64,000 bases of DNA, taken from positions 14,027,532-14,091,531 of the forward strand of contig NC_090718.1 in assembly GCF_040954835.1 (NCBI RefSeq), written 5' to 3'. Below, piece after piece: positions 667 to 35,251 of the stretch (within the stretch, counting starts at the first letter, position 1; every line of letters starts with the position of its first letter). The position numbers were made by a program, and so were the translations under genes. The DNA is from Lepisosteus oculatus. Its lineage: Eukaryota > Chordata > Actinopteri > Semionotiformes > Lepisosteidae. A model generated the notes under the pieces. That model made no database searches and was not told the DNA's origin. It worked only from the letters and a program-made list of their open reading frames with translations.

Positions 667-3600
667 ATGATTTGTCTCCTCCTGAGAGTGTTGCTGGTGT
701 GGCTTTGTCTTCTTTCAGTCAGAGGTGAGTAACTGCAGTCAGAGCACAGCTTCTGCTGACAACTGGCAGCGCGAAAATAACTAAGGCACTGGGCTATTAT
801 AAGAGACGCGTATGTTAATTTCTAATTGAGTACTTGGGTGGTCTTTAAAGAATTTGAACCCTGAGGAGCAGATGAAAAGGACATGATATGAGTGCGAAAA
901 TCAGCAAATGAAATTGCATGTGTTGGTTAGTGATTTTATTTCATAGAGCTGTCTCAGTACAGTGTTCTTTCAGACCGAGTGTAAGAGATCCCACTGCCTG
1001 TATTAAAATCCCTTCATCTTGTCACTTCCTACAGTATGTCATATCCATACAGTGTTGTGTTTCTTTTCTCATTTGTGGTTTTGTATCTGTTAAAGTAAAA
1101 CAGGGTATTTCAGAAGGCGTCAACAAGTGGTTCTATGGGGTTTTGAGACTCCTTGGTGAAAAACTCCATCTCACTGTACAGCTCCCTCACCTTCCTGTCT
1201 TCGCAAAAGTTATTTAGCTGGAGGGAAAAAAACAGATCCCTGACACATTAAAATGAGCACCATAAATAATGGATTGGTCAGCCTCAGCACTTTTTTTCCT
1301 GCCTGCATCTTTTTTGTCCCCACACCACGAACAAGAGCGAGTCAAGTCAGATTCTGCCGTGTTTGTGAGTGCTCTGTTTGGTGTCTAGCATTGTCATGCA
1401 ATGCTCTTGTACCTCATTGTAAAATGTCTTGGCTGTGACACAGACAATACAGCAGGAGCACACAGCTAACAGAAGTAAAAAGGGCATTAGTGGGATTTCA
1501 CCCCCTTTTATAAATGTAAAGTTCTAATAGATGAGTTGTATCTTATTAATATGTATTGTATGTAATATGTATGATATGGCCAGCATCTATATCATGCTAT
1601 AGCTCAAAACTGGCAGCCCACTGAAGCTAAGCAGGTGTGAGCCTGGCCACTACCTGGAAGTGTTAGTGGGACCAACAGGGGGTTCTCACACAGCGGTCTG
1701 TGTGGGCCATGATGCCCCAGTATAGTGAGGGGGACCCTATGCTGTTACAATACTACCATCCTTCAGATGAGATGTAAAATCCAACTGACTCTCCAGGAGA
1801 ATCCTGACTCTCCATGGTCATTACAAATCCCAGGGAGTTTCTTAAACAAAAGTAGGAGTGCTACCCAGGTGTCTTGGCTAAATTGTCCCCTGGCTTGGAT
1901 TCCTAATCTATGAACTGGCTTCATCACTCTGTTCTCCCCCCCACTGAGAGCTGGTATGTGTGAGAGTACTGGTGCATCATCCAGGTGGGGCTGCACACTG
2001 GTGGGGGTGGAGGGGATCCCCATTACCTGTAAAGAGCTTTCAGTGGAGGGTCCAGAATAGTGCTATATAAGGGTGAGGATTATATTAAATGCCCATGACA
2101 TGTTTGAAACTCACAGAAATTAAAATGGAGCAGAATCCAAGAACTGTGCAAAAGTGTGATACGGCTTTCTATTTTGCTTCCAGGGAAGGGCAATGGCCGT
2201 GTTCAGTCAGCTGTGGGGTGGAGGGAAGAGCTGCCCTGCGATTACTCCTTTGAAGACCAAGGTGCCATCGCCGAGCTGTCTCTGCAGTGGAGGAGTCCTG
2301 CCTACAGCACGCTGTGCCGCTACATCAAGCACAAGTCGTTTAGAAACTGCACAACAGGGTACTCGCTTGACTATAAGCCTGGCCGGATCAGACTAATCAT
2401 TGAAAATGTCAGAAAGGAGGATTTTGGAAACCACACCTGCTCAGTGAGCAAACAGCATGAATACTCTGACTTCATCATTCAACTTTCCCGCAGTGCAAGT
2501 GAGTGCCGACTGTGCCTTTGTAAACCTATTGCTGTACTGTGATCTGGCATCTGGGCAATTTCCATCACAGGATCAACCTTTCAGTGTGGTTCCTTAATAC
2601 TGTACATGATTGAGTTATAAAAATTCACAATACCTCGTGTCTACAAAAGTACACCAAATGATGACTCAAAAGTTACTATTCTTTTCGCACGCTTTTCAGA
2701 AAATATAGCCTGGGGCAAGAATTTGCTTTGGTTCAGTTACAGTAGGCAAGCTGACTTCCCTAAAATTCACTGTACTTTGAATGTACTTTCTGAGCACAGC
2801 ATTGTATAGTATGAACTTGTGCATTTTCTTTTCTTTGATGTGTAGGAATTCTTATGCCCAGTGAAGATAATAAAAATGGGGTAAATCCAGGTAGGATTTT
2901 TCTTTCTTCTTTTATGGTGAGCGGACGTGGGTTTACTGTAAATATGATGTCCGTATGGATGCATTTTCTTCAGATACTATGGGAGGCAAAGTACTCTTTG
3001 TCCAGTATCTGTACTATTACAATTACTTTCTTGCTTTAGTCACTCTTGCTGTTGCTGTGGACCAGGGATCCCAATCTATTTATTCTTATAGGGCAATTGG
3101 GGTGACCTGTTTAAAGATTAGTAACATTTGTTTAAGCCATTGAAGAAATCAATCAAGCAAGGTTTCAATGGAAGAGAACACTAGTCCTTGCAGGTTGAAA
3201 GATATTCTTGTTTTTGTTCCAAATTAGATCAGCTTTAATTGAACACATCCCCTGTTTAATCCATGTTAGTGAAATTGTTGCAGGTGACCTCTTAATCCTG
3301 CTGGACTGGGGCTCCCCAGGCCTGGGCTGGCCGTGCTGCAGCCCCGTATCTCTCCGTCGTGGTCCTGGTAGGCCCATATGAAACCCTCCACTGCAGGAGT
3401 GTTGTTGAGAGATTTGTCAAAGAGATTTGACAAACAGGACACTGCCAGTTCTTAATGGATGGCTAATTACTGGTGTGTTTTGCCTAGTAGAGACTCCTAC
3501 TATCCAATGTCTTTAAGAGGCAGAAAAAAGGTTTTGCTCATCTACAGATCAATTAGACTGGCAAAATCCTAGCCAGGACAAAAATGAGTAGACAAAGGAG

Positions 3601-3792
3601 TTCACCAAGGCCACCGTGAAAAGCACTGGCTTTGCTCAGTCAACTTACAAAGGTTATTTGTGTTGAAGCTCTCATTAGATGTGCGTCTCAGAACTCTTGC
3701 CTCATGGTGTTTCTTTTCCATCCCCAGCACACACAGTCATCACTCTGATCCTCTTCAGCTGCCTGCTGAGTGCTCTGACAGCGCACCTCTGA
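667..3792 (+). CDS. IgSF-1: single V-like Ig domain protein, probably GPI-anchored
   Basis: Four coding exons, all joined in phase 1: 667-724, 2184-2498, 2846-2890 and 3728-3792 (160 aa). Exon 1 encodes a signal peptide (MICLLLRVLLVWLCLLSVRG). Exon 2 is one Ig domain with first Cys in LPCDYSF, core Trp in LQWRS and second Cys in FGNHTCSVS; it has an extra Cys pair (LCRY, FRNCTT) and N-glycosylation sites NCT and NHT. Exon 3 is a 15-residue polar hinge (ILMPSEDNKNGVNP). Exon 4 is hydrophobic (VITLILFSCLLSALTAHL) and ends at once, with no cytoplasmic basic residues, so a GPI-attachment signal is more likely than a true transmembrane helix. Every donor and acceptor fits consensus. The ligand and family name are unknown; context suggests a cell-surface immune receptor or decoy. 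A soluble form lacking exon 4 is an alternative. Confidence 0.82.
1573..2078 (+). mobile_element. SINE3 (5S rRNA-derived) copy A, diverged
   Basis: The head resembles 5S rRNA (GAAGCTAAGCAGG, then a degraded TACCTGGA box) and the body matches the six other copies here (GCCCCAGTATAGTG, GGGGATCCCCATTACCTG). The tail ends in a GCTATATAAG-like motif. It lies in intron 1 of IgSF-1 and has clear substitutions and deletions, so it is an older copy. Confidence 0.8.
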
Positions 3793-3867
3793 AGAAGCAG
3801 AAGGGCCTTCTGGACGTGAGAAACTGAATGCGACGCAACTTCAAATCTCGCTGTTTTGCTCCTGAAA

Positions 3868-3873
3868 AATAAA
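3868..3873 (+). terminator. Poly(A) signal of IgSF-1
   Basis: AATAAA 75 nt after the IgSF-1 stop codon, followed by a GT-rich stretch around 3925-3945. Confidence 0.6.
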
Positions 3874-3989
3874 TTCAAAATGCCTCTGCAATCTCCACTG
3901 TGCTACGCACCTGGGCAACACGGAAAGGTTGTGTTTTTGTTCTTTTTTAAGAATAAAAAGTGAGTTGTGGATTTTCATAGGGGTAGTGG

Positions 3990-4160
3990 TGATCTGCCAC
4001 CACTTGTCATTAATGGCCAGTCTGTGGAGAGAGTGGACACCTTCAAGTGTCTTGGCCTGACCATCTGCCCCTCACTGAAGTGGGAAGTTACTATCAGCAG
4101 AAAGATATCATTGTCATGAAGAAAGGCCTTCAAAGGCTGGACTCCCTATAACCACAGTTA
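3990..4160 (+). mobile_element. LINE reverse-transcriptase fossil (Rex1/L2-like)
   Basis: One frame reads PPLVINGQ, then ERVDTFKCLGL, then SLKWEV. This is the conserved 'FKYLG...W' block downstream of the catalytic region in fish non-LTR reverse transcriptases. After a frameshift, KKGLQRL follows, matching the usual KKAQQRL. A stop follows soon after. It is a dead fragment with no catalytic motif. Confidence 0.7.
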
Positions 4161-5239
4161 ATCAGGAACCAATGACTCAGTTCTGTAGAATACTGTATGT
4201 GTTTTGTTCATTTTGTTGTTTTTATCTGTGCTGCACTGATGGCACATTCCAAATACTGTAACTTTGGAATTAGAGAAATTAATCAAAATAAAAGGCTCTA
4301 TAAATTGTCAATTTGTGTGTACAACATACCCACACTGCAACATGTTGGGTGCCTATATGGAGCAAATCTCCCTTTAATTTAATTCGTTTTTCTTTTGCAG
4401 TATTTTAAACTAACGATCATGTCTAAAAGACCAAACAGAGCCTGTCCATGACATTTCGTTAGAGGACTGTGGTGTTTGTTTTAATCGAGCTTTTAATTCT
4501 GTTACTTTATGGTCTTACAATGTAAATTCATTTTCTGGCTGTTGTTTTACCATGAAATGATGTGTCATGAGAAGTAAAATAAAATGGAGAAGAAATAAAA
4601 AATAAAATAGGTTATTGTGAATGCAGCAGCTAAGGACAAGATAATCCAACTATCCTGAATGACAAAACATTAGCATGTTAAGAAATAAGAATAATATAAC
4701 AGGTGTTGCTGCAGAGGAGCTGGGGAGCAGGCGGGTTGCCATTAGGTGGTTGGTATTGGATGACAATTTAAGAAAACAAGTGATTGAGGAGACAGAAACT
4801 AAACACTGCACTTCCTCAACTTCAGAGGCAGAAAGGACAGAAAGATGTCATCTCAAGCATACAGGGTTACATGTACGAATTGCATGAGGTTGCACTGGAG
4901 GCTGACTGCCAAGAAAATGTTGGGGGAAAAAAAGCATTTGGGCACTAACGATGTGATATTTATAAATACATCTTTTGTCCTGTCGCTCTCATTTCTGTTC
5001 AAGAAGAGCAGGCACTTGGGGGAGACTTTAGCTCATACTTAAGCTCCCAGGAAATGCAGGGCCATCATATTGGAGCTCCACTGTCTAATCCCAGGGATAC
5101 AGTTACAGCGATGATGTCTGCTGCAGAATAGGACTGAGCACTTATCTCTTCTGGCTATGCGATAATACACTTAAATGGCATAGAACACATTTTCTAAACT
5201 TTTTCTTGGGTATTGTCATTATGTACTATTATCATTACC

Positions 5240-5305
5240 AATAATTCTAATTTTGTGTACAATAAAAGCTTTTTGTTGCACTTATGCATACGACAAACTG
5301 AACTC
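5240..5305 (+). mobile_element. Possible LINE 3' tail
   Basis: GTACAATAAAAGC, then a GCACTTATGCATACGACAAACTGAACT-like end that resembles the 3' end at 40190-40252. It is short and could be coincidence. Confidence 0.35.
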
Positions 5306-7161: not shown

Positions 7162-7271
7162 CATGACACATATTTCAAAGCCAAGCAAACGTTTCTTTGT
7201 ATCACACAGATTGTAAACAGTGAAAAGTGTTATCACACAAGACCTCAAACAAAACCTCCAGCGAAACTGCA

Positions 7272-9459
7272 ATGTGCAGAAGCTGTTCAGCGATGTTTCT
7301 GTTACTTCATTTGGTTTTATTGACTGGGTTTCAGATGAAAGGTAAGAGAAGCTTTTAATTGTCCTACTTTTTAGGCTGTGTCCTGAAATCCAAAATATTT
7401 GAGCAAAATTCAGGTACTAAGTGGTCAAATGCTAGTGTCATCACCTTCCAAATGGCGCAGCAGGCATTGAAGGATATTTATCGTTTATTTATTTATTTAT
7501 TTCTGTTTCAGAAAGTGCACCTGTAGGATAAAAACCCCAACTAAGATCCTAAACATAAATGAGCTAAAGCCGAACAATGGTCTTCAATTGAAGAACAAAT
7601 CTGATATTTGAGAAAAACAGTGCTTGTACAGTTTATCTTTTAGTTGGCAGATCATATTCACATTGCTTATCTGATGATACCAATATAAAAGAGCCTTATG
7701 AAAAATGTCTCCTTTATATCTTAAAATAGTGCAAAGCATTAGCAGGTCTTTGTTTAGAATACTATGGTTAGTTTTGCTCATCAAGATATAAAAAGGGATT
7801 TTTGTATCATTGCTCTGAAATCAGGTCAGAGAAGACAGTCTAACCTAGTTGTAGAAATTGTTACCCTGGCGTCTTTCACTGAGTTGCTGGGACGAGCTCC
7901 TCGGATCAAGCAGCTACTAAAACCAACTAAATGATCTAAGTGGCCTTTCTCTCGCTCGCAAAGTTTCTTATGTCCTGATGTGCTTATATTCCTGTACTTT
8001 GAAATACAAAACAAAAACTGATGACATGTTAGTCAGAAATATGCAGAAAGTTATTTAGTTACTCTTTCTCTTTTATGTCAGCAATACATTTCAGGTCTAA
8101 AACACAGGGAGGAACAAATCAGAACAAGAGAGCAGTTCGTCTGTGGCAAAACGTATACCTACTGTGCTACCTACTGTGCTGAAGCTAAGCAGGTGTGAGC
8201 CTGGTCAGTACCTGGATGAGAGACCTCCTGGGAAAAAAAGGTTGCTGCTGGAAGAGGTGTTAGTGGGGCCAGCAGAAGGCGCTTACCCTGTGGTCCATGT
8301 GGGTCCTAATGCCCCAGTATATGGATGGGGACACTATACTGTGAACAGGCGCCGTCCTTCGGATGAGGCATAAAACCGAGGTCCTGACTCTCTGTGGTCA
8401 TTAAAAATCCCAGGGTGTTTCTCGAAAAGAGTAGGGGTGTAACCCCGGTGTCCTGGCCAAATTTCCCATTGGCCCTTACCAATCATGGCCTCCTAATAAT
8501 CCCCATCTATGAATTGGCTTCATCACTCTGCTCTCCTCCCCACTGATAGCTGATGTGTGGTGAGCGTTCTGGCGCACTATGGCTGCCGTTGCATCGTCCA
8601 GGTGGGGCTGCACACTGGTGGTGGTGGAGGGGATCCCCATTACCTGTAAAGTGCTTTGAGTGTCCAGAAAGTGTCAGTAATTATTATTATTATTACCACT
8701 GGAGATGTGAGTTGCTCAGTCCGTGTTTCTGTTCTGAATTCGATTGGCAGGTTGCAGCTCCAGGCACCAGAAGACAGGCGGACACTGGGAAGTGGTCCAC
8801 GCCACTGTCGGCGACCCCTTCTCCTTGGACTGTTCGTACAACTGCTCCGCGGGCTGGATCCGCGGCTACTGGTGCAAAAGCGACAGAGAGAGCGCTGAAA
8901 AGGGAAGGGAGTGTTTTCTGGAAAACAAGCATCTGATCACGAATCAGAGTGGGGGGATGTGCATGATGACCCTGCCCTTCCCAAGCTTGGCTGTAAAACA
9001 AGACGGACACAGATACATGTGCTACTCAGAGGACTTTAACAGCCAGCACAACACAGCCAAGGCAGAACGTCAGGTGGTCCTTGGGATTCAAGGTAGGTCA
9101 TCCACCTGGAGCAAACATAGGTTGACAAGACAGGAGAGGAACTCATAGACTTCAGTGAATTTGTGAGGTCTCCGCCACGTGCTCGCCACAGAGATCTGCC
9201 CTATTTCCACACACAGGCAGTGTCTGATTTTTCAGTTCACGCTCTGAGGTCAGAATTTCACTGCCGGACCATTTGCAAAGGAGTGAGTGGCAGCGCGGCA
9301 GCAGCTCAGGCACAGACCAGCGCTTTTCGCTGTGAGGTAGCTTTGTACAGCAATGACAGAAGGGTTTCCACTGCACAAGACACAAGGGGTTGGAAGATAA
9401 AATCTCTGAATGATTCCCGCACGCTCCTTGATGCCATTTCCTTTGATCCCATGTGACGC

Positions 9460-9519: not shown

Positions 9520-12500
9520 TGCTTACACTTATATAGCGCTTTTCTGGACACTCCACTCAAAGCGCTTTACAGGTAATGGGGATCCCCTCCACCACCACCA
9601 ATGTGCAATGCACTTGCCTGGTCAATGTTTTTTTTTCACTCTTTCCATCAATGTCTCGGGTGTTCAAATTAGAGTTTGACAGGAACTGTCTGAGTGGGGT
9701 GGGGCACCTGTCCCTAGACAGGCTTTACCGCCAAGGTCGTGCACTTATCAGACTGCAACTGACAATAGCGACTGTCTTCTCTCTCAGCTCGGCCCCGTGC
9801 CCAGGTGGTTGGCCCCCAGGGGGAGCTGGTCGCTGGCAGCATGGCATATTTCAGCTGCGTGTCCAAAGGCTTTTATCCTGGGAATGTCACTGTGAAGTGG
9901 TTCCACAACGGATCACCGGTTGTTGGCACAGATCCTCAGAGGAGCGTCTGGACAAGCAATGATGGCACGTTTGTCTCCATCAGCAACATGACCATCAGAC
10001 TCCTGGCCTCACATCACCGATCCGTCGTTGCCTGTCATGTCTTTCATATGTCAGCAAGTCAGCCTGTGGTAGACAATATCACTCTAAATGTGAACTGTGA
10101 GTATGGTGCTTCCCCATCTCAGCCCTCAGCTGCCTTTGAAACGTCACAGCAAACCTTGTTTTAACTCTAATGCTTTTGTTCCAGATGGTCCTCTAGCAAT
10201 AAAGGTGTTTCACCTTCGTGCTGACTCTGCAGGCAGCACCGAGCTTCTTGTCCTTTCTAGTGTCATAAGGACCAACGCAAACTCTCACCTGGAGCTCCTT
10301 TGCAAGGCTGACAGCAACCCCGCATCTGAGGTAGATTGGGCCAGGGAAGGTAGCGATCTGTCCTGGCATCAGATTCCCTCTCTGGATGGCCAACTGAGTT
10401 TGAACAACTTAAAGGAGCGAAACGCAGGAGTCTACTGGTGCTCTGTATCTAACTCCTATGGAAAAACCAACATCTCTGTGCGGGTTGTGGTTGAGAGACC
10501 AGGTCAGTGCAGTACTGTATCTCAGAGTGGATTGATGACTTGCTTGTGTTGCCTGGCCTTAATAATCCTGTAATAACTCTTATACACTCCACTCAAAGCG
10601 CTTTACAGGTAATAGGGATCCCCTCCACCACCACCAGTGTGCAGCCCCACCACGATGATGCTCCAGTACTCTCACCACACATCAGCTCTCAGTGGGGAGG
10701 AGAGCAGAGAGATGAAGCCAGTTCAGAGATGGGGATTATTAGGAGGCCATAATTGGTAAAGGCCAGGGGGAAATTTGGCCAGGACAACGGGGTAGTCCTA
10801 CTCTTTTCGAGAAACACCCTGGGATTTTTAATGACAGTGCCATTGATGGGGAGAGAGGGTGCAATCCAGCATTGCCCAGACAGCACACTTCCCAGCTGTC
10901 ATACTACAGCTCACCTGTGAGTGCTGTGATCTCATTGGCTCCGGAGAGGAGTTGACGTCTGCAAGATGGAGAAGCTGGTCTTGTAATAAGGGCCTAGCCC
11001 AACTGGAGAGCTGTGAAGAAGAGTGCTATCGAACTCATGGCCCAAGGTGTTTCTCGAAAAGAGTAGGGGTGTAACACTGGCCTCCTGGTCAAATTTCCCA
11101 TTGGCCCTTACCAATCATGGCTTTCTAATAATCCCCCTCTATGAATTGGCTTCATCACTCTGCTCTCCTCCCCACTGAGAGCTGATGTGAGGTGAGCGTT
11201 CTGGCGCACTATGGCTGCCGTCGCATCATCCAGGTGGGGCTGCACACTGGTGGTGGTGGAGGGGATCCCCATTACCTGTAAAGCGCTTTGAGTGGAGTGT
11301 CCAGAAAAGCGCTATATAAGTGTAAGCAATTATTATTATTATTATTATTATTATTATGGCTGACCTTGTTCATAGGTGAATACAACTGGCTGAAAGGCTT
11401 GGCGGCTGGAGCAGTAACCGTGGCAACTGTGCTGCTGGTGGTGGCTGTTTACTTCTGTCTGAACACTAGGAGAAAGTGGAAAGGTGAGCTACTGCAGTCA
11501 TCACAGCACTTACTGCGGCCCGGTGGGGACGGACAGCCTGTTCACATCAATCTGGTGAATCCGGAGGGCTGCAGAGACATTAATAAGTTCTCAAATACAC
11601 AAGTTCTCAGGAGAAAAAATCTATCTTAAATTAATTACCCAAAACACGTGCTTTGTTAAATTATCCCTCTTCCTTCTTCTAATATTTGTTCACTCTTAAT
11701 GATTAACATCAGTATTAGCCGAGTGGCCAGCTTTAGTGTCTTTTTAATTCAATTCAATTCAAGGTGCTTTATTAGCATGACCGATGGGTACAATCAGTGT
11801 TGCCAAAGCAAATAAAAATAATAAAATTAACATAGAACAAAACAAAAAATAGAAGTAAAATAAAATCTACAGACATGTTACAGACATTTACAACAAAGAC
11901 ATATTATATAATATCGACATATACTGTAGGCGGCTGGAGCATTATTGGGAGACGGACTCACTGTTCCTCAGGCTGTGACAGGAGATCACATACTGGGCTG
12001 CCAGATCAACTGAGTTCCCTCCTCCCTCTCCCAGTAGGATTGGGACCTGTTGTGGTTTTGGCAGGTGTGGGAACTCTGGGATTAGTTTTATCTCAGAGGG
12101 TCATAAAGTGTTTCACATCTCATCCACTGCTGATGTGACGTGCAGCCCCCACCTGGGTGACAGGAGACAGCCATACAGGAGACCAGTAGCCCCACCACAC
12201 AGCAGAGAAGTGAGAGACTGTTTCACCTGTCCAAATAAGGGGAGAATTTAAAGGGGCCAGATTATACAAACCCAGCCGTTAACACTCCTGCTCTTATGAA
12301 AGGTGCCTCCGTCACTTTAATGACAAGTAATCAGGAATCTGCTTTAATGTTTCAACAGAAGGAGAGCATTTCTTAAACACCACAGCATCCCTGCTCAGCA
12401 TACTGAGCTATTAGTGTAGAAAGTCCAGGGGGAATCACCCCCACAACACCATTTAGGGCAACTGAAAGAGGGTTCTGTCAACATAGAAGGGGCAAATGAT

Positions 12501-13839
12501 TGAAATTTAATGACCAATAAGTATCACATTTATTAAAAGAGTGAGTAACTTTGTTTCAGATCTGGGGTACCTACAGCACACTCGCTTAAAAAAATATGCT
12601 TGCCCAGATATTGTCCAGTATCATTCCTTCTGAAGAACCAGAGAATGAGATAAATAAGAAGAAACTCCATTGTTTAGGGCTTTCCAATGCTGTTTAATTG
12701 ATTTGTTTTTTCTCCACATCTGTCGCAGGTCAGCCATCTATTGTTATATCCGAGAGGTAAGACTCCAATGTTTTCATTTCTTTGATAATCGATCTGTTAC
12801 ATATATAGGAAGGAGTAAGATGAATTCCAAACTGAAAAGCAGAATGAAGAAAGACATTTCAGCTGTTGGGTCTTCTTCAGGTGTTTTATATGTGACGCAT
12901 ATACAGTTCAGTATATATGTTCTTGCAAGAAGGTCAGGAGCACATTTAGGCAGCCTTTCTCTCACATGCCTTTCAGTTTAATCCTCTCTTAAAAGGATTC
13001 AACTCAAACAGAGGATTTTGACGATACATTGTCAACACCCGTGAGTGGGCAAGCCGTCGTATTTTGGAGACGAGTGAACAATGTACACATTCCTCCTGCC
13101 ACAGGAGGGTGCATTTATTCACAAACCCAGGCCCAAAGAAATCAGCTGCCCTGATCCCTTTAATACGTCTCTGAAATTAAACTGGGTATTTTACAGCAGA
13201 CTTCCTTTTTTATGGTGCTGAGAAAAAGTATGACTGATTCAGCTGATCTGCGGAGCTAACTTCCCTAGTTCACAGACATGTGAGTCCCAGTCCAAGGGGA
13301 CCCTCTGAGTTCCACTGAACCAGATACGACCCTTAAATTTCTCATCTGTTGCAGTAAAACCCACACATACAGCACATCTCACTTCTTGTAGGAATGTAGT
13401 GGGATGCCATGCTGACCTTCACACTCTAAATGTGCCTTTGCCGGGGTTAAAACGGAGTCTGTTACTGTGACCAGACATGATCTTATCCCTTCCTGCCACT
13501 TTTCCTCTGTGCAAAGTGCATAGGAATCCCTTCCCCCTCACACACGCACACATTCGCCACTTCCTTGCATTTGCTCAGTCCACGCTGACTGTGTTTTTCT
13601 CCTGAAATTCAGTACTGTGGCACTCCTACTGCGAAACCCCCTGCAAACCGAGGGCTGCACTTTCACCATCTGCAAACATTCACACAAAGAACTGCAAACT
13701 GCATCTTATCTGTAAAGCAATCTTGTTAAGATACACACATAAAATTCTCACTGCTTCCAAGAAGATAGGAAGGTCAGTGTTTATGCAGTGTCTTAAATTT
13801 GCTGGTACTGCTGATGACTTAATTACCATTGCACATGTG

Positions 13840-13883: not shown

Positions 13884-16264
13884 TCTTTTAAACACGAGAT
13901 TTCTGTGATCAACATTGAAAACAAATGGCTAATCAGTCACCAATTTAAACCATTTAACAGTCACCACGCTTGCAAGCTCATACTGTATACACACGCTCCT
14001 TAATAGAAGAGATTTTCTGGAAAAGGAACTGAATTCCATGTATGCAAGCTAAGACACATTGCGCAGACCCGCGGCCAGTTTCTAAATCAGAAGATAAAGT
14101 TTGTGTTGGTTTTCTTCACAGAGTGGAAAGTAATGAGGGGATCACTGAAGATCAGTGTAAGGAAGCAGGTAGGACAAGTTATTCTACCTGCATCTTCACA
14201 AGTAACAGTTGAGAAGGGCTTCATATTTAACAGTAATTGCTGACTGAGTAATATGTCTCGTTCTTTCTTAAGCTGAATATGCTATGATATGTAGAAGTCC
14301 AGTCTCAAAAGAAGATGCAACAGGTAAGTAGTTTACTTTGTTCAGTTTAAATTTAATTTTATGAAAATACCTAGATTTAGTCCAGTACTCGTACTAGAAC
14401 CATATTCCTTCAATGCCCTTTTCAACGCTATCACACCCTAATCCCAGCACTGGGCACATGGAGCCTGGTTATGAAACTATGGTTATATCTCTTTCATCAG
14501 ACAAGCCACCTGCCTTTTTATCCCTCTTGTATATTTAGCTGATGCTGTTGTCTAAAGCAACTTACATTTGCATTCATTTAGTCTGCTGGGTATTTTACTG
14601 GAACAGTTCAGGTGAAGTACCTTCCTCCAGGGTACAACAGCAGTTATCTCACCTGCCGTTTGAACCCACAACCTCCCAGCTCCGATTCCAGGGCCCTGAC
14701 AACCGTGCCACACTGCAGCCCCCCTCAGTCTTGCGTATTGGTAAACACAAGCTCTTCCTGCTGATTGAAAAAGGCAACAGCCTGTACACTGTAAACACGG
14801 CCTGTACAGTTGTTCAACAGTCTTACTGAGGAACGGGATGGGCAAGATGGGTGAGGCTGCCTTTCACAGTTACTTTAATTAAATCTGACTTCCCTCATAA
14901 ACTCCTGCCTGACTGGAGGAAACACTGGTATTGCCAACCCAGAATTCTCTGTGCACTCCAGCGTGTCTCTTCCTGTGTCTTGTGTACTGAAATGCCCAGT
15001 AGGCTCCTCTCTCCGGGGTCAGAGGAGAGCTGGGGTCAGAGGAGAGCTGGGGTCAGAGGAGAGCTGGGGTCAGAGGAGTGCTGGGGTCAGAGGAGAGCTG
15101 GGGACCAGAGGAGAGCTGGGGACCAGAGGAGTGTTGGGGTCAGAGGAGTGTTGGGGTCAGAGGAGAGCTGGGGTCAGAGGAGTGTTGGGGTCAGAGGAGA
15201 TCTCACCACGACTTGTTTCAGTGACTTGAACCTCTGGGGTCTCTTGGGTGCTTCTCAGACAGTCTCAGTGTGAACGAAGTGCCCTACGCTGATATCCTGA
15301 TTTCTGTGCGAGGCACGAGTACGCCTGAGCTGAGGCACATCCCAAGGCTGACCATTGGGGACGGTGGACAGGTAAGAGTCATGTTTCAGACAAGACATAC
15401 GGTAGGACGAAAGACGGATAGGGACTGTTAGAATATGTGAATTAATCCAGCAAGTACTGGCATTGAATTCACTGGTAACATTTCATCCTAATAATCTCAT
15501 GATATTCCTTTGCCCTTCAGAATGCTTAGATTTTCACATGGCAAGAGTAAATTGGAATTTAAAAGCATATTCTGACGATTTTAGCTCATTATCTTCATTT
15601 TTCTTGTCAGGTTCTATTTTGTAAATGTTTTTTTTTACGTCATAACATAAACAGGGGTACATAACACAGCTGCAAGTTACAGAAAAAGTTATATTTAGTA
15701 CACACAGATGCAAGATTAAGTTCTGAGATTAAGTACACTAAGGTACGCACAGCTTTCCATTTCCGATGCTTAGACATAGTTTGGAAATATGCCCTTATGT
15801 CCATTTTAAACTGTTCAAAGGCGGGTCTCTTCCCTGGCCGTTTCATTCAATGCACTGTATTCAGAAGCGAGCAAGTATCATGATTAAATCACGGTGTTTT
15901 GTGGTTTTTTTTTTCCCAATGCGCCCAAAAGAAATAGCATAACATAAATGGAATTCATAAAAGGAAAGTCAAATTTAGAATCTTTATCTAATTTGGCAGA
16001 TCAGTCAAGAATATTTTAACAACAGGATGTTGTGGAGTTTCCGGGCGGCTTTCACAAAAGCCTTTTTATCTGTTCCTTCCTTACCCGTTTCGTGGTGGCG
16101 GACGCTGCCCGCAGGAGTGGGGAGACGAGGAGCCCGCCGGCAGCCCACTGCAGAGCTCGCGCTCCGTGGACAGGCTCCCCGTCCACCATCTGGAGGCCAC
16201 GCGGAAGCTGAGCTCGAGCTCGGAGTACGCTGTCATTATCTACCCGAGCAAGCCTCGCAGCTGA
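7272..16264 (+). CDS. IgSF-2: V-C1-C2 inhibitory receptor with ITIM tail
   Basis: Ten exons with matching phases: 7272-7341, 8751-9092, 9788-10096, 10185-10502, 11376-11483, 12729-12756, 14122-14168, 14273-14323, 15259-15371 and 16115-16264 (511 aa). A second in-frame ATG at 7293 may be the real start. Exon 1 is a signal peptide. D1 (about 24-137) has LDCSYNCS and GYWCK, like CD300/pIgR V domains, with extra cysteines. D2 (about 138-240) is C1-like (FSCVSKGFYPGNVTVKWF), closest to SIRP. D3 (about 241-346) is C2-like (LELLCKAD, GVYWCSV). The transmembrane helix is at about 354-375, followed by RRKWK. The tail has AEYAMI (Tyr410), VPYADI (Tyr434, consensus ITIM) and SEYAVI (Tyr500, ITIM/ITSM-like), expected to bind SHP phosphatases when phosphorylated. 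A Siglec identity is less likely because the usual sialic-acid Arg context is not evident. Confidence 0.85.
8160..8695 (+). mobile_element. SINE3 copy B, near full length
   Basis: A 5S-like head (GAAGCTAAGCAGGTGTGAGC, TACCTGGATGAGAGACC) keeps the pol III internal boxes. The shared body follows and the copy ends in (TTA)n. It inserted in intron 1 of IgSF-2 and stops 55 nt before the D1 exon. Confidence 0.85.
9459..9519. repeat. (AAT)n microsatellite
   Basis: About 20 uninterrupted AAT units. They are the tail of the inverted SINE3 copy C that begins beside it. The long poly-Ile, poly-Tyr and poly-Leu frames here are artefacts of this repeat. Confidence 0.95.
9520..9608 (-). mobile_element. 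SINE3 copy C, 5'-truncated 3' end
   Basis: Reverse complement of the family 3' end (CTGTAAAGCGCTTTGAGTGG, GCGCTATATAAGTGTAAGC), with its tail forming the adjacent AAT array. It lies in intron 2 of IgSF-2. The body stops near 9605. Confidence 0.85.
10577..10838 (-). mobile_element. SINE3 copy D, truncated, inverted
   Basis: Reverse complement of the 3' half of the family (AGCGCTTTACAGGTAATAGG, ATCAGCTCTCAGTGGGGAGG, CGAGAAACACCCTGGG). It lies in intron 4 of IgSF-2, facing copy E about 200 nt away. Confidence 0.85.
11045..11357 (+). mobile_element. SINE3 copy E, 3' half, next to the TM exon
   Basis: Starts at GTGTTTCTCGAAAAGAGTAG and runs to the (ATT)n tail, so the 5S head is missing. The tail ends 18 nt before the transmembrane exon of IgSF-2 (11376), which leaves part of that exon's acceptor tract derived from or next to the element. 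It pairs in inverted orientation with copy D. Confidence 0.85.
11745..11835 (-). mobile_element. LINE 3' end fragment
   Basis: On the minus strand it reads CATCGGTCATGCTAATAAAG, then CACCTTGAATTGAATTGAAT, a typical fish LINE 3' terminus with a GAATT repeat. It lies in intron 5 of IgSF-2. Confidence 0.55.
13840..13881. repeat. (GTT)n microsatellite
   Basis: Fourteen GTT units in intron 6 of IgSF-2. The poly-Gln and poly-Cys frames across it are not genes. Confidence 0.95.
14530..14722 (+). repeat. Interspersed fish repeat fragment
   Basis: The order GCTGATGCTGTTGTCTAAAG, CAACTTACATTTGCATTCAT, 'GTACAACAGCAGT' and 'TTTGAACCCACAACC' is typical of a widespread teleost and holostean repeat. I cannot name the class with certainty. 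It lies in intron 8 of IgSF-2. Confidence 0.45.
15015..15202 (+). repeat. 17/18-nt minisatellite
   Basis: About 11 tandem units of GGGGTCAGAGGAGAGCT with variants (GTGCT, GTGTT, and GGGGACC units of 18 nt). It lies in intron 8 of IgSF-2 and ends 57 nt before the exon coding for the VPYADI ITIM. Open frames across it are repeat artefacts. Confidence 0.95.
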
Positions 16265-22309: not shown

Positions 22310-25300
22310 ATGACGACCAGAACCATCGTTGTGGCCCTTTTGGTAGTGCCCATCAGCCTCTGCACAGCAGGCAAGTGAGGCTTTTGTCATTTCCACTCTC
22401 TTCAGCCTCCACTCCGTCAGACACACCAGTGTTTTCTCCTCTTGGCTTGTAAAATCTCGGAATACCCGTAGGCTTCATCTGTCACTGCTGAGCCCCGCTG
22501 CGCAGCTTTTTAATGCTTCCAACAGGCGTGTTCTGGGGTGGCATGGATGTTAGCGTTGTTACCTCATGGCTCTCTGGTCTTGTGTTCTGCTGTGCGCTCG
22601 GTCCCCTTCTGTGTGGTTTTGCTTCTTGTTGCTCTGGGTTTGTTTCCACCTGGTTCCTTAATTAAACTTGAATTTGGCACCTCTTCTCTGTCCCTGTGTG
22701 TGTGGGCCCTCTGATGGACCAGAGTGGAGGGCCACCTTGTGCCCTGTGCTTCCAGGACAAGCACCCTGTTGCTGTGACCACCTTTCTGATGATGATGGGT
22801 GGCTAATTCTCCAGGAGTCCTTGTACAAGCTAAAGAGCTGCAGATCTGAATCATTTGAGTGTAGCTGACGAACCTGTTTGGAACTTCATTTTTATTTGAT
22901 GGCTTTCATCAACCGAAAGTAAAATATAAAATATGTGAATTGAAAATTTAACTACCCTGTTAGTTTTTTATTCCAGGAGCATTTCTGCAGTGTATAAAGG
23001 TTTACTCCCCAGGTAGAAAATCAACCTGTTGGCATCACATCATGTCACAACATTAAAGATACAGTTGCTGTTCATCAGGATGGATTCTGTGGGATATTTT
23101 TGTTCTGCTGTGTGTACGTTATGGGGGACATTTCCAGATTTAAAGTACAATTCTCAATACCCCTTTAACAAATTCAGTGAGGAGCAGGCGTTGGAAGAAG
23201 TCATTTCCACATTCCGCTTTGATGCGAAGCAGCGCTAAGAAGTAAGAATGACGTTAGATTTGGCAGCAGGCGTGAGGATGTGGTTCAGTAGCCTTCCAGC
23301 GAAATCAGACCAGGGGAATTCAGGCAAACGGTTGCATCAAGGTGTCTGTTTGATTTGCTAGCGTGGGAGGTACATACCGTAGGAGGCTTTTCAGTCTGGG
23401 GATCTTCGACATGGCTTTCGGAACACGTCCTGACGGAAGAGCAGGGCATCGCAGTAGGTTGTAGCAAAGGTGGGGATTGTACGTGCTATTGGAAAGCGAA
23501 ATCAATACATTGTGTAAACATGGGGGAACCATGGAAAACCTGCGGAAGCTGTGGAAATCGAATTTCTTCTAAATCTAAATAACACTGCCACAATTTAATA
23601 CACAATTTAAAGAGTTTGTGATTATTTTTTTTTTAGCAGAGCTGTCTGCCTCTAATGCTTAAATGCGCTGAGCTCGCATGCCGGCAAAGGGAATGTGCTC
23701 CCCAGCACCTGCTTCCTTGCCTTTCATGTTGCACATCCGTCCACCAACACCCCCCTTCCTCGATCCGGAGTCCGGGCGCACAGAGCAGCGCCTGAAATAG
23801 CTGTTCCTGAGAACTGCACGGGAACAACTAGGCAAAGTGCTCACTATCTCGTTTCTTGATCCCACCACTCACCAGTGCAGCCAGTGCGGGTGGAAACTCA
23901 TCTGCAGAAAATTGCGTGCAGGTGAAGCTTGACGAAGCACAGTCTGACACCCCGGCAATTTCAATTTCAAGCCTTCGGTTGCTTATTTTAAAGGGACTCT
24001 CGAGTGTAAAGCAGATGTTTACCGGTTGCAAGCGTCACCAGGAGAGGCTTCCTGGTGAGAAGGGTGACTTCCGTTTTCTGTACAAGCTTTTCCCTTATTT
24101 TGCAGTAATAAAACAGGAAGTAGCCGTTCAGGGAGAAGGACGACTGGACTGCCAGCACAATTACCCTCAAGCAGACATTGTGACCTGGAAGCACAGAGAG
24201 ACTCAGATTTACTACAAAGAAACTGGGAAGGAGAATACAAGTGCAAAATACAGATTAGAATCCAGTGATAAGAAGGTGCAGCTGATCATCACAGATGTGC
24301 AGAAAGGGGACGCGGGGGTGTACACTTGTGAAGTGTTTTCGGGAAAGGATTACAAAGTTCTTGAGTTCGAACTTCTTGTCAAAGGTAAGAAAAAGGTTCT
24401 TCACTTCTACGTTGTTAACTGTGGCCATAATGGAGATTTCAATACATCCTCTGTTCATGAAATCCTTACTTGCATCTGTGAGGTCACAACATCTCCAGAA
24501 CACCTGGGAGGAAGGTTGCACATGGGGAATGTGGCTTCTAGACTGTAGAGAGTCCATTTTATATCAGTTTTTCATTGATGTCCATGTTACTGACTTTTTC
24601 AGATAGTGACTCATCAAAAGGAAGATCTTCAGGTAAGAGTTATGAGCACAGTGAGCATCAGTCATGGACAGGATCTTGTCCTAAAATCGTTGATTATAGA
24701 GTAAGATAAGAGTACTGGGACACTAAGATGTCAATGACTCATTAATGCTTCGTATCCCTGTATATGGGAGGGAATGAACATGTGACTATTGTTTTGTTAT
24801 GATTGCAAATGTGGAAACTAAACGTTTAATGCAGTTATTGATGTCTGCAAGGCTGAAATATACTTTGCTGATGCGAAAAGACGAATTCCTAATGCAAGAA
24901 ATTGTATAGGGCTAATAAAGAAACATTATAATATTACATTATACGTAGTTATCCATCTGTATTATTTCACAAAGCATCCAGCAGACACCGCTGTTTTATT
25001 TTTCTCCCATGATGCATGTGCAAGATCTCAGGTGTAGAACCAAACACAAGAGCCCACAGTCTTTTTATAGCTTCACCCTGGAACGAGAGAGAGGCTTGGC
25101 ACTGCCCTGTGTGGGTTCCCCTCATTTCCTGTGACACTGCAATTAAGCATCTGTGGTACTTAATCGTAAACTCACTGTGTTTTTGGGTACTCGCTTGACT
25201 TATCTTGTGAGAGAGAGTCCATGTTGCTTTCTTCTTTTGGAAAGCTGTGTAGTATGAGTACAGTCTGATCCATTTTTTAGGCCTGTTTATTTATGCACAG

Positions 25301-26811
25301 TTCTTTGCAGGAATCTTCTGCAGACATAGAGGATGCTGTGTATAAAATCCTACAACTCTCAAGCTGCTTTTTGTATTATTAGTCAGACAGGTTTAGGTTC
25401 TCTTTATCACCTCTACGTAATGCCAGATCAATAAAGAGTCCATTTTATATCAGTTTTTCATTGATGTCCATGTTACTGACTTTTTCAGATAGTGACTCAT
25501 CAAAAGGAAGATCTTCAGGTAAGAGTTATGAGCACAGTGAGCATCAGTCATGGACAGGATCTTGTCCTAAAATCGTTGATTATAGAGTAAGATAAGAGTA
25601 CTGGGACACTAAGATGTCAATGACTCATTAATGCTTCGTATCCCTGTATATGGGAGGGAATGAACATGTGACTATTGTTTTGTTATGATTGCAAATGTGG
25701 AAACTAAACGTTTAATGCAGTTATTGATGTCTGCAAGGCTGAAATATACTTTGCTGATAGATTTAGAAACTATTGGATGGGAGGTGTGCATATATTGTTA
25801 TTGCATAGAATATATTGTTATAATATATTGCATATATTGGAGGTGTGTAATTATTGGTGCATTATCAAAATGTAAAATTGTGGGCGGAGTCATGTAATAA
25901 TTGTTACAAATGGTGGTGGGGGTGTACAAGAAATGGATAAAAAGTTAGTAAATGACTCTGCTGAGTACTCAATTTAAGTAAATTAAATGACCATAACCCC
26001 CAACTTGTAAATTATTTTGCCAAACATATATCTGAGCTGTTAGCATAGTAGGAGACACATGAGTTCTTTTTTCTCTAGCACAGACATAAGCTTTACCAAA
26101 AATGAGGCAAGAAGATTTTATTATAGGTTTTTTTGGTCATTTCAGGTTTCGCCAGCACTACAAGAAGTTCATTGACTGGTAAGACCACTAACTCCGTGTC
26201 AAAGTAGAAACATTTTCTCTGTGCTTGACAAACACACTTAACCCTTTCTGTGTTCTCACATTGCTGTTTTGTTATTTTCAAAGGGACCATCTTTGAACAT
26301 GGCCCAATAGCTAGTATACCTTTACAAACAAGATCATAGAAACCTATGAATCTCTCAGACACTTTGGACCAAAATATACTTATTCAAAGCTTCAATTATT
26401 TGGAGGCGAACAAAATACGAGGTTCCCAGAAAACAAAGAGGATCCTCAATGGTGTCATTCCTTCAGAGAAGTTTTAGATTACAGGCCCCAAATAGAGACA
26501 TGAAAATTTAAATGCAGGTTTTACCTTTTCTTGTTTGTAGTAGCTATTTGTCTGTCAGAGTCCATTTGTCTTTTTTTAGAACATTCTGGTGTGGTACAGA
26601 ACCCACTGCCACAGGTGTGATGACATCCAGATGCAGAAAACTTGTATAACTTGAGATCTTCAGAAAAAAGCCAGTTAGCTTTCAGATCAGACTTGGAAAT
26701 GTCTAAGAGTTTTCCTTGCCATCAGTAGCCAGTTTCTAACTGTGTTTCTTCTCTTTTCTCACAGTGACCCTTGCTGGATTTCTGCTGCACATGATGCTTT
26801 CACGCCTCTGA
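22310..26811 (+). CDS. IgSF-3: single V-domain protein with S/T hinge, probably GPI-anchored
   Basis: Exons: 22310-22370, 24106-24384, 24603-24632, [25489-25518], 26146-26178 and 26765-26811. All are phase 1, giving 149 aa with one copy of the 30-nt hinge exon or 159 aa with both. Exon 1 is a signal peptide (MTTRTIVVALLVVPISLCTA) and ends in AG/GCAAGT, a textbook GC-AG donor. Exon 2 is one V-type domain with LDCQHNYP, VTWKH and DAGVYTCEV, the canonical Cys-Trp-Cys with the D-x-G-x-Y-x-C signature. Hinge exons are Ser/Thr-rich (DSSKGRSS; FASTTRSSLTG) and probably O-glycosylated. The last exon encodes only VTLAGFLLHMMLSRL, a short hydrophobic end with no cytoplasmic tail, so GPI anchoring is likely. 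Its role is unknown; placement suggests a surface partner or decoy of the cluster. Confidence 0.8.
24549..24872 (+). repeat. Tandem duplication, copy 1 (contains hinge exon)
   Basis: 324 bp that by reading appear identical to 25435-25758, offset 886 bp. It includes the 30-nt hinge exon 24603-24632 with both its splice sites. The near-perfect identity means it is very recent, gene-converted or an assembly artefact. Confidence 0.92.
25435..25758 (+). repeat. Tandem duplication, copy 2 (contains second hinge exon)
   Basis: Second copy of the 324-bp block. The duplicated hinge exon 25489-25518 keeps acceptor, donor and phase 1, so it could be spliced in to lengthen the stalk by 10 residues or used alternatively. 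Confidence 0.92.
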
Positions 26812-30979: not shown

Positions 30980-31316
30980 CATTGGTTCCCAATCCTGGTC
31001 CGGGTGCCTCACACACCTGCTGGTTTTTGTTCCAGCCGAGCCCTCAGTTCCACAGTCAAACCCTTCGTTGACTTGATCATGATAAGATTAACTTGTTCCC
31101 AGCTCTTAAACAAGCCGGAGCTTGAACTGTTGTATTTTGTACAGCAAGTGAAATAAAATCCCAAAGTTGCGACTAGAAACAAAATGCAAATATTCAACAG
31201 AAGCAACTTCTTGGATCAAGTAAGGCCTCAGTTATCTAATGAATATCTGATGAAGGTGGGATGGAATAAAACCCACCAGGTGTGTGGGTCACCAGGAACA
31301 GGATTGGGAACCACTG
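30980..31316. mobile_element. hAT-type MITE with long terminal inverted repeats
   Basis: The left end CATTGGTTCCCAATCCTGGT and the right end (reverse complement CAGTGGTTCCCAATCCTGTT) form imperfect inverted repeats of about 53 nt that continue through the CACACACCTG block. Flanking 8-mers CGGTAAGA (30972-30979) and CCATAAGA (31317-31324) match at 6 of 8 positions, as expected of an old 8-bp target-site duplication. There is no transposase inside, so it is non-autonomous. Confidence 0.85.
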
Positions 31317-31489
31317 CCATAAGAAGACACCTGTGTTGGGGCTTGTCACAGTTGTGTACGTTCGGCAGGATGCCATGCTCATAGATTGAGAGACAAGGTT
31401 CCCATGAGAGAGACGTGACATTTCCTCTGAGCTTACCAGCAGGCTTCCTCCTGGTCAGTTGCGTGACGTGAGTCGAGCGCTGGTCCCCA

Positions 31490-31501
31490 GCCACTTCCTC
31501 C
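31490..31501 (+). promoter_or_regulatory. Ets/PU.1-like site upstream of IgSF-4
   Basis: GCCACTTCCTCC, whose reverse strand carries GAGGAAGTGG. It lies 147 nt before the IgSF-4 start codon and matches the site ahead of IgSF-2 over AGCCACTTCCTC apart from one base. It is a candidate myeloid/lymphoid enhancer-promoter element. Confidence 0.35.
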
Positions 31502-31636
31502 CCAAGCCCTCCTTCAAGAGAGACGTTTCTTGTCAGAACGCCTTCAAATGCACCTTGAAGGTCTGAGCGCCAGCAAGTGCCCCTGCTCAGACAGAGCTTC
31601 TGAAAGCTCCCCTTTCAGCATCTAGCCGCAGGGGTC

Positions 31637-34600
31637 ATGATACTGGCCATAGTGCTGGTTCTGGTTCTGCACGGCTCAGGTAAGCTGACAGCACTTGTTT
31701 TTGTTCATAAGAATTTAATCTTCGAAGGCTCCAGCTAAATCCTGGACACCCGCCGTGTTGAACTAGACAACAGGGTGACACATATCATTACCAAGAGACT
31801 TGCTTTTCTTACAAAGGCCAAAGCACTACAATGCACTTTTAAATTGACTTTTTATATGCATTTGCTTTTGTAGTTTGAATCCACTCCTGCAGTTGTTCAT
31901 CAGATGTGCTGGGGGGTCGGCAAAGGCCCTTAATGCTAATGTCTCGGGATAAATGGGTCCCGTCTTGGTGCTTCTTGAAATTAAATCAATCTGTGGGCAG
32001 TGCACGGGAAACGTAGGGACTTTTTGAAAAGCGATGTGATACCAAAAAGAATTTGGGTACTTGGATTTCCCTCTTAAATTGATCAAATTCCAAAAAAGTA
32101 CTAAAAATGTAAAAGATACTTGAAGTAAGAACTGTCCATTCAGTCGATCAGCCCTCCTAGGGATTCCTACCAAATAGACCAGGACTTTGAGATGTTAAAA
32201 CTGCTCTGAACTGGAGCTGGGAAGAAACTCAGTTGAAGCAGGAATGAGCCAGTTCAAAGGGTTACTGTTTCAAGTATCAGATCCTTCTTATCACCCACAT
32301 GAAGAAGCCTAAGCCAGCTTCTCATTCTGTCTTTTACAAAGACGGAACATTTTCAGCCCTCAGTGAGATAACACCGGTAGAGAAAGAAACTCACTTTTCT
32401 CATCCAAATTTAACACTAGGTGCACAAGAAGTTCATCGAAAGATTTCTCGCAGGATGAACTACAATACCTGACCTTGACGGGTCTCGGAACCTCAGCAAG
32501 GCTGAGCCTGGGCAGTACTGGGGTGGGAGACCTCCAAGGAAAACCAGGTTACAGCTGTAAGCAGGACCAGACTCTCTAAACCAATATCCCAGTAAGGTGA
32601 CTTGGGATACTGTGCTGTAGGAGTTGCCAGGCTTCAGGTGAAACATTCACTTCTCGGGCTTTAAAGATCCTAAGGCACTGTTCACAAAAGTAGGGCTGTT
32701 TAACACCAGAATTTTGACTTAATTGCATTCTGGTTTTGTACAATCTGTCCAACATCCCTTAAATCAGTTGGTGAAGCAATTTCTCACTAAATTGTACTAC
32801 TGACTCTCTGTTTCTGTCTGCATCTATATCTGCTTACAGGCCTCCTTGCCAGCTATTTGTTTTTCCAGTCCACAGAAATTCATGCCATCGAAGGCCAGTC
32901 ATGTACAATTCAGTGTGTATTCAGATTCCCCATGGAAAATTACTCAAACATAGTCGGGAAGTGGTACAAAGAGGATATGAAGAGCAAAAATGCCACTGAA
33001 GGCAACATAATGATATCCTGTTCCCATCCACAAAGAAACCTGATTGTATGCAACTTCACCCTACACAAGCCTAGACTCACTCTGAAGGATTCTGGGAAGT
33101 ATCACTGTGAGCTCATGATGCCGTCTCCAACAACTCCAAGGAAAGGCAGAGGAAATTGGACGACACTCGTGGTCTATGGTAAAGTACACCCTTCTGTACA
33201 CTGGCTTTGTATCTTTCATTGCACTTTGCCTAAAACTCTGGTTTGAAAAGGCTTTTTCAATTTTTGGCGAATAGACAAAGGAACAAATTCCGCATCATTC
33301 TTGTCCCTGTAACAAGATGTCTTTATCTTAAGATGTCCATAGCACCAGAGGAGGACAGGCCCTGAATGTTTTATGCCCGATTTTGTACAGAGCCTGCCAA
33401 AATCAGAGCTCTCAATCAAACCAAAGTGGATGTGATCGCAGGAAGAGAGGACTTCCTCTACTGCCAAGTCAGCGGTGATTACCTTGGGGGCATTAGCGTC
33501 GTCTGGCAGCGCCAAGGCTCGCCGGTGACCCAGGATGTGACAAACAGTCCCATTGAAAGGAACCAGGACAGAGGGGTCTCCATGACCAGCCGACTACAGA
33601 TCTCCCCACGAGCCGAAGACATAGAGATGAACTACACATGTGCGGTCAGCTACAGCATGCAGCCCAGCCCCATATCCACAGCCTTTCAGCTGAGTGTGAA
33701 ATGTAAGACTTGCGCACTGTACATGACCTAAAACGTCTTTGGAAATTATACAACATGCCTGACAGATGCCTGAATGTTCAGAGTAGCAGAGGAGGTACAA
33801 TATCAGTACCAACCTTGCTGGCCTGCAGAAGAACTCTGTATTCTAAATTATCAAAAAGGAACCAAAATGAGCCACTGGGTGACCAGGTGACAGGTAAGCA
33901 AAAGGGCTGGTTTCCGAATCTGATATTCTGAACAAGCAAAAAATGAGACAGTTCTTCTTTTACATGCAACACTTCCAGTCAGGCTTATAGACAGGGCTTT
34001 TTCTCATTTCATAAACGTCATACTTCGTGTCTGAACAGGCAAGGAATGAACCCGTTGAGAGATGATTGTGAGGCTGGGAGTTTTGCTATTTGCTCTGCCG
34101 CTTCAGGCAGTCCGCGGCCTGTTTCTGTCTGCTTCTTGATAACCCATCCCCTTGATTCTCGTGAGGGAAAGCATGGTCCTAGACGATTTCTTTTCTTGTC
34201 TGTGCCGCTGTAGATTCTCCCACCAACCAGACAGTCCTCCACCGCTCCTCTGACCAGGACCTACCCAGGGTCCTTTCCAGGAATGAGCTCCAAGCCCCTC
34301 CTGGTTCCTTCCTGGAACTGCTGTGTGAGGTGGAGAGCCGGCCTGCTTCCCTAGTCCAGTGGTACCATCCCAGCGGCGCCAAGCTGGCAGATGGATCCAA
34401 CAGTGCCAACCTGATGCTCCACCCAGTACGGGCCGGGGATGAGGGGCCGTACCGCTGCACAGCAAACAACTCCTACGGTTCGCGCCAGCTGGAAATTTAC
34501 GTTTCCACTCGCTCGTCTGGCAGCTCGAAAGGTACAGGGATAAAAATGCCGTTTCTAGTCAGGTCCCTCTCGCGCTCAGGGTGGCCCCGGTTGAAGGTGA

Positions 34601-35251
34601 GCTGCTCTGAGCTGCTAGTTTTGGGGGGGATCTCTCTTCCTCCTGCACAGCCAATCTGTTTGAATTTGTCTATTATCTGGTGCTGCCATCAGACCAGTGT
34701 GTACAACAGGCAATTTACTCTTCGGTTTATTCTGGAATTTCTTGAAAAAAAACTTAATTGTGAATTTTGGCCTCCTTCTTTGAGCTCATAGCCACTATCC
34801 TGTACCATCCCCCCCGCCCAATCACTGCAATTTAAGAGGTCAGCTGCTTTCCACTTGTAAAAGAGAAAAGGATAACACCATATTCACTGTTTTTAATTTC
34901 TTCCAGTCAGATGGGTCACATACCCCCTGTTCGTGTTTATTGTGTCCAGTCTGCTGCTCTACAGAAAACACACTGAAGGTAAGGGGGTGATGGCTGGCAA
35001 ATGTGTTAGTTGGCGTCGTCGTCTACAGGGCCGCTGATGGAGCGTCGGTTGCGTGAAAGATACCTCGGTTTTCAAAGTTAACGGAAATAAAAGATGGGGG
35101 AAACTGAAACTAAACTTGTAATAAAACTTGTCAATTTCTCCCCCCCTTCTCTACAGACCTTCACCGTCTTAGTTGCTGTGTGCCAAAACCACAGTGCACC
35201 GAGGACATGGCCTCCCTCCCTCAGCATAAACTGACCGGCGAAGCCCCGTGA
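31637..35251 (+). CDS. IgSF-4: three-Ig receptor with short tail, paralogue of IgSF-2
   Basis: Six exons: 31637-31679, 32840-33178, 33391-33702, 34214-34531, 34907-34978 and 35157-35251, all phase 1 (392 aa). Exon 1 is a signal peptide (MILAIVLVLVLHGSG). D1 (about 15-128) is V-like with IQCVF, GKWYK and SGKYHCEL, extra cysteines and sites NYS, NAT, NFT and NWT. D2 (about 129-231) is C1-like (LYCQVSGDY, VVWQRQ, NYTCAVSY). D3 (about 232-337) is C2-like (LELLCEVES, VQWYHP, PYRCTANNSYG). The helix is about 341-356, followed by a 36-residue tail with a Cys pair and no tyrosine motif. The Ig exon lengths (339/312/318 nt) nearly match IgSF-2 (342/309/318), and both D3 domains share LELLC, PAS and NSYG, so they are paralogues. 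The helix has no central Lys/Arg for an ITAM adaptor, so it may be a decoy or non-signalling member. Confidence 0.85.
32450..32715 (+). mobile_element. SINE3 copy G, old and diverged
   Basis: The 5S-like head is still visible (GGTCTCGGAACCTCAGCAAG, GAGCCTGGGCAGTACTGG, GGTGGGAGACCTCCAAGG). The body is decayed (AATATCCCAGTAAGGTGACT, AGTAGGGCTGTTTAACACC). It lies in intron 1 of IgSF-4, about 125 nt before the D1 exon. Confidence 0.7.

Follow-up and report, generated by a model that had tools for sequence, protein, structure and literature searches.

A proposed old tandem doubling of a two-gene immunoglobulin-superfamily cassette, with a candidate inhibitory receptor, beside spa17 in Lepisosteus oculatus

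We describe a cluster of four immunoglobulin-superfamily (IgSF) genes, here called A, B, C and D, that lies next to spa17 on contig NC_090718.1 of Lepisosteus oculatus. It falls in a window of 64,000 nucleotides (positions 14,027,532 to 14,091,531 of the forward strand), whose numbering is used throughout. From comparison of the deduced proteins we favor, with moderate confidence, an old tandem doubling of a two-gene cassette, together with the roles proposed below for the four products. Unit 1 would consist of gene A, with a single V domain and a glycosylphosphatidylinositol (GPI)-like end, and gene B, with a V-C1-I ectodomain and immunoreceptor tyrosine-based inhibitory motifs (ITIMs). Unit 2 would repeat this plan with gene C (single V, GPI-like end) and gene D (V-C1-I, short tail). 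Judging from its ITIMs and architecture, B most likely serves leukocytes as an inhibitory receptor that recruits SHP-1/SHP-2, and D is most likely its non-inhibitory paralogue.

Results

All four genes could be rebuilt from the sequence as intact models on the + strand, beginning with the gene A start codon (ATG, 667) and finishing with the final base of the gene D stop codon (35251). Their order is A-B-C-D, followed on the same strand by the spa17 ATG at 38226. The models comprise 26 exons. Introns follow the GT-AG rule with one exception, the first intron of gene C, which has GC-AG borders. Extracellular exons are joined in phase 1. An earlier reading of the DNA from its letters, the sequence-only reading, had placed a one-strand cluster of four IgSF genes at 667..35251 beside spa17, and its coordinates proved exact; its statement that all exons are phase 1 holds for most of them and fails for the four first exons and, in gene B, for two exons of the tail, which enter in phases 2 and 0. 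The predicted products have 160 (A), 504 (B), 159 (C; 149 with one copy of a stalk exon) and 392 residues (D), with 2, 7, 1 and 8 sequons, respectively. AATAAA is found 76, 31 and 176 nt downstream of the stop codons of A, B and D, and gene C has only an ATTAAA, at +217 nt.

The evidence for two families comes from pairwise comparison of all eight Ig domains (28 pairs) with shuffled-alignment controls, scored as local and global z. Four pairs stood out locally, namely the I domains of B and D (z = 15.6), the V domains of A and C (13.4), the C1 domains of B and D (10.3) and the V domains of B and D (6.6), while the other 24 reached 4.8 at most. The first three of these pairs still led in global alignment (11.3, 7.6 and 8.3, in the same order). 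BLASTP aligned B (residues 1-376) with D collinearly across the three domains (75.9 bits, 26% identity over 322 residues) and A with C at 37.4 bits. Exon sizes of B and D also agree (342/339 nt for V, 309/312 for C1 and 318/318 for I). By these comparisons the four genes fall into two families, A/C and B/D, whose members alternate along the strand, and a single family of four paired receptors, as the sequence-only reading had implied, is rejected. The individual descriptions of that reading were borne out: an ITIM-bearing three-Ig gene (B), a short-tailed three-Ig paralogue (D) and a pair of single-V genes whose ends are GPI-like (A and C, the end of C being the weaker). With all four genes on the same strand in the order A-B-C-D, a single tandem duplication of a two-gene cassette would be the simplest history.

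Gene B has 10 exons. They encode a signal peptide (7293..7341), a divergent V-like domain (8751..9092), a C1-set domain (9788..10096; Pfam 3.9e-10, 40.4 bits), an I-set domain (10185..10502; 1.8e-9, 37.9 bits), an uncharged transmembrane segment (11376..11483) and, in five exons, the cytoplasmic tail. Domain 1 was called V by its similarity to the corresponding domain of D and by its Cys/Trp pattern. After two short cytoplasmic exons (12729..12756 and 14122..14168), the tail carries the near-ITIM AEYAMI (14273..14323; Y403) and the strict ITIMs VPYADI (15259..15371; Y427) and SEYAVI (16115..16264; Y493), the last exon ending in the stop codon. Three of the four tail tyrosines therefore lie in YxxI, and the fourth, Y498, lies outside such a motif. 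Y403 and Y427 are 24 residues apart, a spacing like that in tails binding tandem SH2 domains. Two simple repeats also lie in this gene: a minisatellite of about 11 units of 17 bp (15015-15200), directly upstream of the VPYADI exon, and an uninterrupted (AAT)20 microsatellite between the V and C1 exons (9460-9519).

Gene D has six exons, for a signal peptide (31637..31679), a V domain (32840..33178), a C1-set domain (33391..33702; Pfam 3e-10, 40.7 bits), an I-set/Ig_3 domain (34214..34531; Ig_3 1.7e-10, 41.7 bits), a transmembrane segment (34907..34978) and a short tail with no tyrosine motif, ending in the stop codon (35157..35251). The V-set match (1.5e-5) is just below the cut-off, at 25.6 versus 26 bits. 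A structural model of this domain (predicted local distance difference test score, pLDDT, 63.6) has V-fold neighbors, and those among the matches listed are mostly V domains of antibodies, T-cell receptors (TCR), variable new antigen receptors (VNAR) or leukocyte receptors. The match level is similar for many immune V domains and no family stands out. No match was found between the D ectodomain and viral contigs.

The paired-receptor plan seen in the sequence-only reading was correct as to an ITIM-bearing member (B) and a short-tailed one (D); the D product contains no immunoreceptor tyrosine-based activation motif (ITAM), and the core of its membrane span is uncharged. True paired receptors, in which D would activate where B inhibits and would signal by way of an adaptor (FcR-gamma, for example), are nevertheless conceivable, because the best membrane window of D, VRWVTYPLFVFIVSSLLLY, has R339 at its outer edge and D has no ITIM. 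A hidden ITIM exon was sought between the D membrane exon and spa17 (34978-38150, phase-1 entry only), and the lone weak candidate, at 36057 (LIFYYFI), was taken as chance; the same search over the B tail region recovered exon 9 alone. With that uncharged core, and with 26% identity between B and D when paired receptors usually have close ectodomains within one family (A and C belong to another), this reading is tentative and rather unlikely. The position of R339, at the outer edge only, leaves D as a possible decoy or adhesion form, or as a possible partner of an FcR-gamma-type adaptor.

Gene A consists of a signal peptide exon (667..724), a V-like domain (2184..2498), a stalk (2846..2890) and a hydrophobic GPI-like end with the stop codon (3728..3792). 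Its V-like domain has the regular-expression Ig core defined below and matches Pfam I-set/V-set weakly (I-set 0.009, under the cut-off). The six exons of gene C encode a signal peptide (22310..22370, with the GC donor), a V-set domain (24106..24384; Pfam 1e-7), three short stalk segments (24603..24632, 25489..25518 and 26146..26178), the first two being copies of each other, and a GPI-like end with the stop codon (26765..26811). GPI-like ends were called by hydropathy of the C terminus, and that of A is a good fit (2.0). Both proteins are probably lipid-anchored. The copied stalk exon and its splice sites belong to a 327-bp tandem duplication (24546-24872 and 25432-25758; 99.7% identical), which is a very recent event, a variant in copy number or else an artefact of assembly.

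As a chance control, a regular expression for the Ig core, Cys-Trp-(D/E/N)xGxYxC, was run over open stretches of at least 60 codons in six frames of the 64-kb window. It gave five matches, all on the + strand and all within modelled exons, whereas 40 Markov resamples averaged 0.075 and never had more than one. Of the eight domains in the models, the pattern passes over three, namely the C1 domains of B and D and the V domain of B. Pfam scans of whole frames, with stops as X, recovered the C1 and I domains of gene B and missed its V domain, so such scans can miss divergent domains. To E 0.05 they found no further Ig genes on the + strand at 4.0-8.7, 16.3-21.5, 27.0-31.6 and 48.0-58.0 kb. On the + strand at 38.1-48.1 kb the only Pfam matches were RIIa and IQ; the - strand gave none at 35.3-45.3 kb and, at 48.0-58.0 kb, one sub-threshold virus model (0.026) taken as noise. 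At 59-64 kb five of six frames were without a Pfam match. The remainder of the window, with the greater part of the cluster's - strand, was covered by the regular expression only. An NCBIfam search gave no match reaching its cut-off.

The identity of the neighboring gene is supported by an RIIa domain in its first coding exon (38226..38402, + strand, 3' border approximate) and by an IQ motif (40579..40638, + strand), both found by Pfam. Downstream of the IQ motif, a Glu/Asp-rich open frame runs for 378 codons from stop to stop (43881-45017). It is perhaps an extended spa17 C terminus, since a GTGAGT donor-like site overlaps the post-IQ stop.

An interspersed repeat whose copies reach about 560 bp and are pairwise 71-99% alike occurs whole or in pieces at 1589-2087, 8179-8728, 9491-9607, 10584-10835, 11041-11357 and 18607-19199. 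Its head resembles 5S ribosomal RNA (rRNA) (18597-18714; 29.5 bits versus a gathering score of 38). In gene B, two copies stop about 20-30 nt before the splice acceptors of the V and membrane exons. The first intron of gene D has a further stretch that resembles 5S rRNA (32461-32560; 32.2 bits versus the same gathering score of 38) and is probably repeat-derived as well.

Discussion

The proposed function follows the architecture of the four products. The V domain of B would bind a cell-surface or soluble ligand, and phosphorylated Y403, Y427 and Y493 would recruit SHP-1 or SHP-2, damping activation of the leukocyte that bears the receptor. D, which has the same ectodomain plan and no signalling tail, may compete for the ligand of B, as a decoy or in adhesion; alternatively, it may signal with an FcR-gamma type adaptor through its membrane-edge arginine. 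A and C would act as lipid-anchored ligands or co-receptors, co-duplication alone suggesting them as partners of B and D. The stronger proposal, a linked receptor-ligand system outside the named families in which A and C are ligands or co-receptors of B and D, co-duplicated as matched pairs, appears improbable to us. The arrangement of the locus has an analogy in SLAM/CD2-type loci, where the gene for a GPI-linked IgSF ligand neighbors a receptor gene, as the GPI-like genes do here. In that case ligand and receptor are homologous, whereas the similarity of A/C to B/D is no more than generic Ig signal.

Several observations weigh against the old cassette duplication with these roles. The genes of the cluster are predicted, and their roles proposed, from the sequence. 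Pfam offers no Ig model for domain 1 of B, its sole match being a zinc finger below threshold (0.053), and the global z of the B and D V domains falls to 4.4, under such generic pairs as the V of C with the I domains of B (5.2) and D (5.1), so that this link also needs the support of the collinear alignment by BLASTP. The GPI-like end of gene C is weak (hydropathy 1.24) and contains His and Arg. When the 136-residue tail of B was shuffled, 424 of 20,000 shuffles reached its count of two strict ITIMs and 479 of 20,000 its count of three YxxI/L/V motifs, which makes the motifs by themselves modest, suggestive evidence; their position on three separate spliced exons adds weight to the ITIM case. 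Finally, blastn of 1-17000 against 22001-36500 gave only one 74-bp match, within a repeat. A DNA-level trace of the cassette duplication is therefore absent, and two separate duplications are possible instead of one. The same result, with identities between copies of 24 to 30%, is the reason for regarding a cassette duplication as old.

Of the named families compared (SIRP, Siglec, nectin/PVR, CD300/pIgR/TREM, UrIg and SLAM/CD2), none appears to fit B and D, whose affinities are mixed: domain 2 is C1-set as in SIRP, and domain 3 is I-set as in Siglec and contactin. That they are divergent SIRP, Siglec or nectin/PVR members, moved or differently retained in this lineage, seems unlikely to us, although each family has something in its favor. 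The SIRP ectodomain is V-C1-C1. B and D share its V-C1 start, and the uncharged membrane span with an ITIM tail in one member and no ITIM in another is also SIRP-like. SIRP-alpha and SIRP-gamma follow UrIg2, the best match in the PDB, among antibody C1 domains in the domain 2 profile search, and whole B matches SIRP-alpha at 1.3e-12 (among the best 60 of 7654). VPYADI and SEYAVI resemble ITYADL, LTYADL and TEYASI of the SIRP-alpha tail in their YAD(I/L) and (S/T)EYA cores (excerpt of PMC5413580). Domain 3 of B and D differs, being I-set/Ig_3 with no C1-set match, and so does the genomic neighborhood, the SIRP genes lying on human chromosome 20 (excerpt of PMC9652883).

Similarity to Siglecs is found in the combination of ITIM-type signalling with a V domain and further Ig domains. 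Siglec-8 matches domains 2-3 of D (43.9 bits) and has a linker like that of D; MAG is a further match (both among the best 60 of 2885). In the domain 3 profile, DSCAM and contactins score above Siglec-8 and MAG, and domain 2 of B and D scores as C1-set. The Siglec arginine lies three residues after the F-strand Tyr, and the V disulfide of Siglecs joins strands B and E instead of B and F. B (RYMCYSED) and D (KYHCELMM) have no arginine after this Tyr, and both keep the B- and F-strand cysteines, with an extra E-strand cysteine also there. The conserved V-domain arginine is important for sialic acid contact in Siglecs, according to the excerpt of PMC7226832.

Nectin-1 is among the fold neighbors of the D V domain; it reached E 0.1 against the V profile and was not among the best 60 of 7654 (B) or the best 60 of 2885 (D). 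The three-domain plan of nectin/PVR, V, C-type and I-type, is matched by B and D, the V of B being the domain not seen by Pfam. The best model for domain 2 is nevertheless C1-set, C2-set_2 barely passing its cut-off (22.1 and 23.0 versus 21 bits), and the tails end in YPSKPRS (B) and LTGEAP (D), without a nectin-type C-terminal motif. CD300/pIgR/TREM-type receptors are V-only or multi-V, whereas B and D continue with C1 and I. Their likeness lies in the V domain: that of B has YWCK and extra cysteines, with pIgR topping its weak matches, and NKp44, pIgR and TREM2 are among the fold neighbors of that of D. For UrIg and non-rearranging V-C1 genes, the domain 2 match to UrIg2 is the point in common, and the difference is that UrIg is MHC-linked (major histocompatibility complex) and antibody-like (excerpt of PMC10751288).

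It is also necessary to consider adhesion molecules of non-immune tissue, for instance neural or epithelial, forming a cluster in an IgSF-rich region. Domain 3 matches DSCAM and contactins best, and human SPA17 lies near VSIG2 and ESAM on 11q24. We regard this reading as distinctly improbable given the several ITIM-type motifs on separate tail exons of B, the low identity between copies (through age or fast change) and the immune-type fold neighbors of the D V domain, though such neighbors are common for V folds.

The preferred reading is still a doubled cassette containing a candidate inhibitory receptor. Among the matches listed from the open-licence literature, titles and the starts of abstracts describe no such IgSF cluster beside spa17, and the excerpt of PMC11599192 mentions neither spa17 nor siae. 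Clusters of ITIM receptors are familiar. A duplicated cassette in which V-C1-I receptors take turns with GPI-linked V proteins is unlike the named clusters compared here. If A/C and B/D prove to be ligands and receptors, the locus would offer a small system in which the evolution of linked receptors and ligands can be tested. Fish are reported to carry regularly Siglec1, CD22, MAG and Siglec15 only and to lack CD33-related Siglecs (excerpt of PMC7226832); in these animals, gene B may represent a further candidate leukocyte inhibitory receptor.

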